Positions 20,171 through 21,629 of a stretch of 64,000 nucleotides of DNA are shown here, piece by piece; within the stretch, counting starts at the first letter, position 1, and each line of letters begins with the position of its first letter. The DNA is from Paraphaeosphaeria minitans (Eukaryota > Ascomycota > Dothideomycetes > Pleosporales > Didymosphaeriaceae): assembly GCA_015832175.1 (NCBI GenBank), contig WJXW01000005.1:1364001-1428000 (forward strand), in the 5' to 3' direction. The position numbers and the translations under genes are program-made. The notes under the pieces were generated by a model that had not been told where the DNA came from, made no database searches, and was given only the letters and a program-made list of their open reading frames with translations.

Positions 20171-21469
20171 GAGCAGACGGTAAAAATGTAAGAGTGCTCG
20201 AGCGGTGTTCATTGCAGGCGTACTTATTTGGATTCTCAAGGTCACGACGACATGGTATGTAAGAGAGGGCTTTAGCTGCAACCAATATACCCTTCTACGT
20301 TCCTCTAGCACACAGCATCTCTGCTTCTATCGGATATATCCGTCCCCATATCCATGTATAATCTTATATCTCAAGTCGAATATTGCTTCACTCTTTCCTA
20401 GGGTATTGGGAAAGCCAGAACTTGGTAGGCGACCTCACTTGGTAAGCTTCGGTATCGTTTAGTGGAGTATATGCAATTTCTAGCAATTCTTCGACATGTT
20501 GTTAGCCCAGGCTAGAAAGGCAGTTGGAAGCGCATGTTATGCCATTTGGAACATAGGCGGGAGTGTGAGCTAGGGCGGAAACATCGTAGTAGATTTGTGG
20601 GAGAGGTTGAATGTTTTTTCAGGAGTTGGAGCTGGCTATGCGGGGCGATTGTGTCCTACACAAGGGGGCAGGTTCTTCTGACAGCGGTTTTTGACGTGAG
20701 AGCTGCAGCGTGACAAGCTGCGCACATTGCTTAGTGTGTGAGATCACATCAGTACTTTGCAAGGGTTGTATGGTGCAGATTGAATGGTAGTGTAGGCGCT
20801 GTTCCTCGTATGTGTAGTGTGTCCTGGGCCAAATACTAGCGAGCATCTTACGATTCATCCGACGAATACGCTCCTCGTGTCTACTGCATTGCAGAAATCA
20901 GTATCGAGGCTTCAAGTACTATCACAGCAGGCGTTGCGAGGAATCAATCGTCGTGGCTTCATGCCTTTGCCTTTCTCGCTGATGCCGGCAGCCACACCTT
21001 CTGCATTGCAGTTTCGTCACGGCTATTTCCTGGTTTGAAGTAAATAATATATCTTAACTATTGTTTGTTTGGTCATACACACTTGCACTTACCTCTTTGT
21101 GTTTCATCCGTAACAAAGCACTCATGGACTTCGCTGTCCCGCGCAACAACGCCTGCGACTCTTCTCCTCTTTCGCGCCTGTCTATGAATGGTGCTACTAA
21201 CGTCACTGGGCCTTTACTATTCCGAATGGTCTTCAGTGGGCCCCAAGAACAATACGCGTTTTCGCCGGCCATCTCGACGAGCGAGGGATAGTGGGTCCGG
21301 TCGGAACCCCACAAGCGAGTCCGTATGACGCATAGCTCAGCATCCAGTCATTCTCTAGTGAGTTGGAGCTCAATCCCAAATATTTTTCCCCTCGATTTCG
21401 ACAAACTCTTCTACCCTATATATTCATTTCAAACAGATCTTTACATTAAATCAGAGCGCATCAGCTCGC
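20171..21469 (+). other. Spacer without a recognisable gene
   Basis: 1.3 kb between the kinase and the tRNA gene. It is comparatively AT-rich with scattered short open frames on both strands. A TATATATTCATTT segment near 21417-21430 lies about 45 nt upstream of the tRNA 5' end and may help position Pol III factors; this is inference. Confidence 0.45.
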
Positions 21470-21606
21470 GGCCCGCTGGCGCAACGGTAGCGTAAGTTCA
21501 ACATCCATCACAAGCTAGACCGAATCAGTACTAACCGATTCCAGGCGTCAGATTCCAGTCACTTGGAACTTCCTGAAGGTTACCTGTTCGAATCAGGTGT
21601 GGGTCA
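21470..21606 (+). tRNA. tRNA-Trp(CCA) with a canonical intron and an extra spliceosomal-type insert in the D-arm
   Basis: All parts of a cloverleaf can be placed. Acceptor GGCCCGC (21470-21476) pairs with GTGGGTC (21599-21605) with two G-U pairs, and the discriminator is A21606. D-stem 5' strand is GCGC (21479-21482), loop AACGGTA, 3' strand GC (21490-21491) plus GC (21545-21546). Anticodon arm is TCAGA-TT-CCA-G (21548-21558). T-arm is ACCTG-TTCGAAT-CAGGT (21582-21598). The A box (TGGCGCAACGG) and B box (GTTCGAATC) are intact, and T runs at 21613-21618 and 21623-21629 terminate Pol III. About 12 nt after position 37 (21559-21570) form the usual pre-tRNA intron, whose TGGAA can pair with the anticodon TTCCA. 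A further 53 nt (21492-21544) split the D-stem. One A-C mismatch (31-39) remains in the anticodon stem, so reduced function is possible. Confidence 0.88.
21492..21544 (+). other. Spliceosomal-type intron inside the tRNA-Trp D-arm
   Basis: 53 nt between tRNA positions 23 and 24. It begins GTAAGT, carries a perfect TACTAAC branch sequence about ten bases before the end and finishes CCAG, as in the mRNA introns of this window. Removal joins GGTAGC to GCGTCAGA and restores the GCGC/GCGC D-stem. No bulge-helix-bulge for the tRNA endonuclease is evident at its borders. Whether it is removed in the cell is unknown. Confidence 0.8.
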
Positions 21607-21610
21607 ATTA

Positions 21611-21629
21611 TCTTTTTTCTACTTTTTTT
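21611..21629 (+). terminator. Pol III terminator of the tRNA gene
   Basis: Two T runs (six and seven T) begin seven nucleotides after the discriminator base, as expected for RNA polymerase III termination. Confidence 0.85.

Follow-up and report, generated by a model that had tools for sequence, protein, structure and literature searches.

The window analysed here, a 64,000-nt stretch of Paraphaeosphaeria minitans DNA, carries a tRNA-Trp(CCA) gene that is interrupted twice, by an insert with the signals of a spliceosomal intron in the D arm and by an ordinary tRNA intron in the anticodon loop (Table 1). The preliminary description of this DNA had proposed a 53-nt insert at 23/24 that begins GTAAGT, includes TACTAAC and ends CCAG, and all the elements that it named are present in the sequence. 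No tRNA was reported in the window by ARAGORN (without long introns allowed) or by Rfam at its gathering score; ARAGORN allowing introns of up to 200 nt finds a tRNA-Trp at exactly 21470-21606, and the same program calls the gene devoid of its 53-nt insert a tRNA-Trp(CCA) with the intron i(37,12). The restoration of a cloverleaf by removal of the insert, which had also been predicted, is seen in the minimum-energy fold of the gene lacking both introns. In this fold, the anticodon stem has four of its five pairs owing to A31-C39, and the folding energy is unremarkable (z = -1.2, 24 of 200 shuffles being as good). The ordinary intron after position 37 was likewise found as described, its TTGGAA being complementary to the loop sequence TTCCA.

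Table 1. Features of the interrupted tRNA-Trp gene (positions of the window)
Feature	Position	Strand	Basis or comparison
TATA-like element (CTATATATTC), ~50 nt 5′ of the mature tRNA-Trp end	21416..21425	+	Read from sequence
tRNA-Trp exon 1, positions 1-23, A box ~21477-21487	21470..21491	+	Identical in second Trp gene
Spliceosomal-type intron, 53 nt, GTAAGT...CCAG, at 23/24	21492..21544	+	Same-site insert in second Trp gene
5′ splice site GTAAGT	21492..21497	+	GTAAGT in 9/20 split genes
Branch sequence TACTAAC; presumed branch A 21534, 10 nt before intron 3′ end	21529..21535	+	Sequence
tRNA-Trp exon 2, positions 24-37, anticodon CCA at 21555-21557	21545..21558	+	Sequence
Ordinary tRNA intron of 12 nt following position 37; presumed substrate of the tRNA endonuclease	21559..21570	+	ARAGORN i(37,12) on spliced form; identical in second Trp gene
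tRNA-Trp exon 3, positions 38-73, B box ~21586-21594	21571..21606	+	Sequence
T6 run, presumed Pol III terminator	21613..21618	+	Sequence

The genome that was searched comprises 47.45 Mb in 30 contigs, the window being located on contig C5. A lipase ORF of the window matches a P. minitans protein with 100% identity across 98% of the ORF. A DNA search revealed one other copy of the tRNA-Trp gene, on contig C14, and the 32-nt 3′ half of the gene matches just two genomic places with up to three mismatches, both of them split Trp genes. The check for other tRNA-Trp(CCA) genes put forward in the preliminary description has therefore yielded one more gene, likewise split, and no uninterrupted Trp gene was found. 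The exons and the 12-nt ordinary intron of the two genes are identical (84/84 bases). The second gene carries a 57-nt insert at the same site of the D arm, with a GTACGT start (GTANGT being common to both inserts), the branch region CTAATAAC and a GCAG end, and 40 of 60 aligned columns (67%) are identical between the two inserts; the upstream flanks of the genes are about 56% alike over 60 nt. Divergence of the inserts has thus spared their signals and the tRNA, a pattern that dead genes would not display. The A31-C39 mismatch, which had left decay open in the preliminary description, is real, but the second gene has the same mismatch, which is therefore no sign that one copy is dying.

Reading of about 100 nuclear tRNA genes (a rough hand count) identified, besides the window gene, 19 genes with such inserts. 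These 20 split genes, which are a lower bound, represent 13 kinds of tRNA, and their inserts occupy 14 positions and measure 49-66 nt (median 52). The genes came from Rfam matches, from DNA searches and from two ungapped T-arm patterns. Rfam gave at least 58 tRNA matches, some of mitochondrial type (62 of 1307 candidates scored). The first pattern gave 55 matches compared to eight for its reversed control and the second 82 rows compared to 20. From the latter, 40 new places were fetched, three palindromic places being left out, and the 25 with a T stem of four or five pairs were read. Several split genes were found for Trp (n = 2), Pro-AGG (n = 2), initiator Met (n = 3), His (n = 3) and Leu-CAG (n = 2), and a single one for Leu-AAG, Ser-CGA, Thr-CGT, Arg-TCG, Arg-TCT, Val-CAC, Val-TAC and Ala-CGC. 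By hand numbering, the inserts are located: (i) at 3/4 (Ser), 5/6 (Thr), 10/11 (Leu-CAG-1) and 15/16 (Val-TAC), (ii) at 18/19 (Arg-TCG), 19/20 (Arg-TCT), 20/21 (Val-CAC) and 21/22 (Pro), (iii) at 23/24 (Trp and Leu-AAG), 24/25 (Leu-CAG-2) and 25/26 (Ala), and (iv) at 38/39 and 46/47 (initiator Met) and 53/54 (His). None of the 20 lies at 37/38. ARAGORN, a lenient program, calls all 20 spliced products tRNAs, and its isotype agrees with our own reading for 16 of them. For the four disagreements (His-3 called Asp, Ser-CGA undecided, Thr-CGT called Trp and Val-TAC called Ser), the reading by eye relied on where the ordinary intron lies and on related genes.

The Leu-AAG gene (L127, G000:C2:1331649) and the Leu-CAG-2 gene (L131, C2:4313381) have introns at 23/24 and 24/25, one nucleotide apart, and their exon contexts are almost identical; this offset reflects either independent gains or a border that has slid. 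Other observations concern the remaining tRNA genes. L051, labelled tRNA-Trp by ARAGORN, is a Leu-TAG gene by our own reading and was rejected as a further Trp gene. Four tRNA-like genes (L124, L135, L141 and L156) carry long structured inserts in the anticodon region, and their isotype is not readable. Mitochondrial-type tRNAs (L012, L015, L016 and L053) are found at G000:C3:2840217-2853194, within a 4.3-Mb contig, and correspond either to a nuclear copy of mitochondrial DNA or to mitochondrial sequence joined in assembly. Two tRNA-Thr(AGT) genes (L088 and L089; G000:C3:286535 and 286644) lie in tandem, 109 bp apart, and resemble each other across the part that was read. Among the tRNA genes read, none was for Phe, elongator Met, Gln-CTG, Leu-TAA or Pro-TGG, and a yeast tRNA-Phe query had no match in the genome. 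Pattern searches for relatives in viral and genome contigs gave one match, an ordinary intronless tRNA gene on a viral contig.

The borders of the inserts were picked at GT and AG, and the test applied was whether the tRNA product forces them. Each gene allows one to five equivalent excisions that leave the same product, and one of these is GT..AG in all 20 genes, with an upper bound of about 1e-42 for chance under uniform base composition and independence of the genes, the latter not holding for paralogues. Empty sites give direct comparisons. In an intact tRNA-Pro gene, query bases 20 and 70 are adjacent, the empty site falling exactly at the GT/AG borders, and for Ala-CGC and Leu-AAG 24/24 junction bases match the intact paralogue. 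The three initiator-Met genes, with inserts at 38/39 (one gene) and 46/47 (two genes), encode an identical 72-nt tRNA. In a junction test against a panel of intact tRNAs, the GT-AG product was the sole best in 10 of the 20 genes, whose borders are thus uniquely forced: both Pro genes, Leu-CAG-2, Leu-AAG, Thr-CGT, Arg-TCT, Ala-CGC and the three initiator-Met genes. The latter were compared with their siblings split at the other site, with 8-nt junction flanks, since a 12-nt flank exceeds the distance between the two insert sites and gives no result for these genes. The probability of finding GT..AG in all ten forced genes by chance is 288/256^10 for uniform bases, the kinship of paralogues being ignored. 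In the other ten genes, 1 to 23 rival products outscore the GT-AG product (five and six for the two Trp genes); therefore, the borders in these genes, the window gene included, rest on stem pairing and on split siblings. The ARAGORN score, computed over 42,448 excisions, ranks the GT-AG product first, alone or jointly, in 7 of 20 genes and does not discriminate between borders.

The 20 inserts begin with GTAAGT (n = 9), GTAGGT (n = 3), GTAAGC (n = 3), GTACGT (n = 2), GTGAGT (n = 2) or GTAAGA (n = 1). CTAAC occurs within the last 32 nt of 11 inserts, whereas 1000 shuffled sets average 1.3 and never exceed six; any of five branch variants occurs in 19 (shuffled mean 5.4, maximum 11). The looser CTNAY, for which no shuffles were made, is present in all 20, with its A 9-13 nt before the end of the insert. 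The Leu-CAG-2 insert ends with AAG, an unusual acceptor. Four mRNA introns delineated by eye in genes of the window (one in a kinase gene, one in a glycosyl hydrolase gene and two in a tyrosinase gene) measure 48-60 nt and have their branch A 9-15 nt from the end; one of them starts with GTACGTTCA, as does the second Trp insert. The likeness to neighbouring mRNA introns asserted in the preliminary description was thus recovered in length (49-66 compared to 48-60 nt) and in branch distance, on a small sample (n = 4). Its reading of the insert as spliceosomal in type now appears well founded at the sequence level, given the second Trp gene, the 18 further split genes, the empty sites at GT/AG and the mRNA-like branch distances.

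Alternatively, the inserts could be ectopic tRNA introns of the sort known from archaea, nucleomorphs and Cyanidioschyzon merolae, removed by a relaxed form of the tRNA endonuclease. PMC4090602 and PMC3978253 describe archaeal introns at many tRNA positions, including 3/4 and 53/54, and ectopic ones in nucleomorphs and C. merolae. Furthermore, ARAGORN detects an ordinary tRNA intron in the spliced forms of 14 of the 20 split genes, so that the host must have a tRNA endonuclease, and those 14 precursors would need both machineries. However, a bulge-helix-bulge central helix, searched in its strict form, was found in none of the 20 genes, and the universal GT..AG borders and CTNAY at 9-13 nt would be of no use to an endonuclease. 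Cleavage of the inserts by a relaxed endonuclease is therefore very unlikely, and removal as spliceosomal introns is the preferred reading.

The recent introner insertion raised as an alternative, if taken to mean a family of fresh copies, finds no support: inserts from different genes show no likeness in excess of that expected from shuffles. Over 184 between-gene pairs, the mean local score is 5.75 compared to 5.35 for shuffled inserts, and the highest score, 10, equals the 99.9% point of the shuffles. Sibling inserts at the same site are identical at 64% (initiator Met), 67% (Trp), 76-89% (His) and 80% (Pro) of positions. These sequence comparisons suggest that the inserts are separate and not very recent gains.

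A further possibility is that insertions resembling introns have killed or silenced the split genes, the tRNAs being supplied by intact genes. Intact relatives indeed exist for Pro, Ala-CGC, Leu-AAG, Arg-TCG and Ser-CGA, and some genes are possibly missing from the assembly. However, all the genes found for Trp (2/2), His (3/3) and initiator Met (3/3) are split. No uninterrupted gene for any of these three tRNAs was found in the genome searches made, although the assembly may lack genes; in particular, no intact His gene is present among the rows read of the second T-arm pattern, and a contiguous initiator-Met stretch is absent from the genome at up to three mismatches. If the assembly is complete for these genes, the inserts must be removed. 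Moreover, split paralogues have identical exons (84/84 bases in Trp with the ordinary intron, 89/89 in Pro and 72/72 in initiator Met) while their introns diverge, and the split Ser-CGA gene shows, by eye, paired stem changes relative to the intact one. The idea of a killed copy entertained for the window gene is at odds with the state of the two Trp genes found, both split and with identical exons, and death or silence of the split genes in general is extremely improbable. The split genes are thus better regarded as functional.

TATA-like elements are present upstream of 16 of the 20 split genes, at a median distance of 43 nt, and of 24 of the 27 intact genes, at a median of 48.5 nt, the motif being loose and without chance control. 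A run of at least four T within 40 nt downstream follows 18 of the 20 split genes; for the other two, just 32-33 nt of downstream sequence were at hand. The A and B boxes are kept in most split genes, the A box of Leu-CAG-1 being interrupted (by eye). Where the acceptor stem is split, in two genes, the TATA-like element lies 43 and 36 nt from exon 1 and the A box is displaced by about 50 bp; the kept TATA distance fits a transcript that includes the intron. From the boxes, the T runs and the TATA-like elements, we infer that the split genes would be transcribed by Pol III. Spliceosomal splicing is normally tied to Pol II. It is conceivable that the introns are spliceosomal but that the split genes moved under Pol II control, splicing being coupled to a capped transcript, and the TATA-like elements upstream of the split genes could be taken in its favour. 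However, intact tRNA genes have such elements at similar distances, T runs follow 18 of the 20 split genes, and most of these genes keep their A and B boxes. A Pol II-transcribed hybrid gene, as had been envisaged for the window gene, is disfavoured by the same T runs and the similar TATA spacing in intact genes, and a Pol II takeover of the whole set appears highly improbable compared to Pol III transcription. According to PMC3978253, some plants and fungi use TATA elements in their tRNA genes.

Downstream of the three initiator-Met genes (L052, L058 and L070), B-box-like stretches occur at distances of up to about 100 bp (e.g., G000:C1:568568-568579); they are possibly extragenic B boxes offsetting the unusual T loop of these genes. 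The other Pol III genes looked at are full length: U6, with one match listed (G000:C1:3840467-3840568), and 5S rRNA, for all 28 matches listed (47 of 2502 candidates scored). No insert was seen in 5S rRNA or U6 among the matches listed, and among the Pol III genes looked at, inserts are found in tRNA genes only.

Taken as a whole, the two Trp(CCA) genes found are very probably functional, each with a U2-type spliceosomal intron in the D arm, and belong to a set of at least 20 split nuclear tRNA genes, with inserts at 14 positions, whose Pol III pre-tRNAs would be spliced by the spliceosome. We infer both excision by the spliceosome and the order of steps. Pol III would transcribe each gene through to the T run, using the upstream TATA and the internal A and B boxes; the spliceosome would take out the GT-AG intron by way of its CTNAY branch site; the tRNA endonuclease and a ligase would remove the separate intron after position 37; and end trimming would come last and give an ordinary tRNA.

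In the textbook view, a protein endonuclease removes the introns of nuclear tRNAs, and the spliceosome those of mRNAs. Among Pol III RNAs, U6 provides a known case of a spliceosomal intron: the U6 snRNA gene of Schizosaccharomyces pombe has an mRNA-type intron. That case concerns one snRNA gene, whereas at least 20 tRNA genes of 13 kinds, split at 14 positions, are concerned here, and the U6 match of P. minitans is full length, unlike the intron-bearing U6 of S. pombe. In 1990, an mRNA intron was reportedly placed in a tRNA precursor in yeast, an artificial construct. The canonical tRNA intron after position 37 also lies within a nuclear tRNA gene, but the inserts described here are elsewhere, have GT-AG borders and a branch sequence and are without a strict bulge-helix-bulge. 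rRNA bearing spliceosomal introns is a Pol I product, which sets it apart from the tRNA inserts found here. Such introns of fungal nuclear rRNA are comparable in that they interrupt a structural RNA (an rDNA example is given in PMC11782384). The ectopic introns of archaea, nucleomorphs and C. merolae share sites in the D arm, T arm, variable loop and acceptor stem and sometimes occur several per gene (PMC4090602 and PMC3978253); they are attributed to the tRNA endonuclease and the bulge-helix-bulge, whereas the inserts described here carry spliceosomal signals. No report of spliceosomal introns in nuclear tRNA genes was found among the papers listed in searches of the open-licence PMC literature, and the parts examined of PMC13149111 and PMC4494063 hold no relevant case. 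A tRNA gene set dependent on spliceosomal introns is thus probably new.

Both kinds of introns would share one tRNA gene, and three irreplaceable tRNAs would depend on the spliceosome. The intact and split paralogues of one tRNA provide clean natural cases of intron gain or loss. Furthermore, several questions become testable: (i) whether the spliceosome works well on uncapped Pol III transcripts, (ii) how exons of a few nucleotides are defined, (iii) how introns are gained in genes that do not encode proteins, and (iv) whether tRNA-finding programs undercount fungal tRNAs. In this fungus, the mRNA-splicing machinery is probably needed to make the Trp, His and initiator-Met tRNAs and, as a consequence, for protein synthesis. 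Overall, it is quite likely that spliceosomal introns have gained entry to the tRNA genes of a fungal lineage, even 3 or 5 nt into the acceptor stem, and that all Trp, His and initiator-Met tRNAs of this lineage must pass through the spliceosome, often with the tRNA endonuclease acting on the same molecule; translation initiation would then hang on mRNA splicing, and the two intron systems would no longer be separate in the nucleus.
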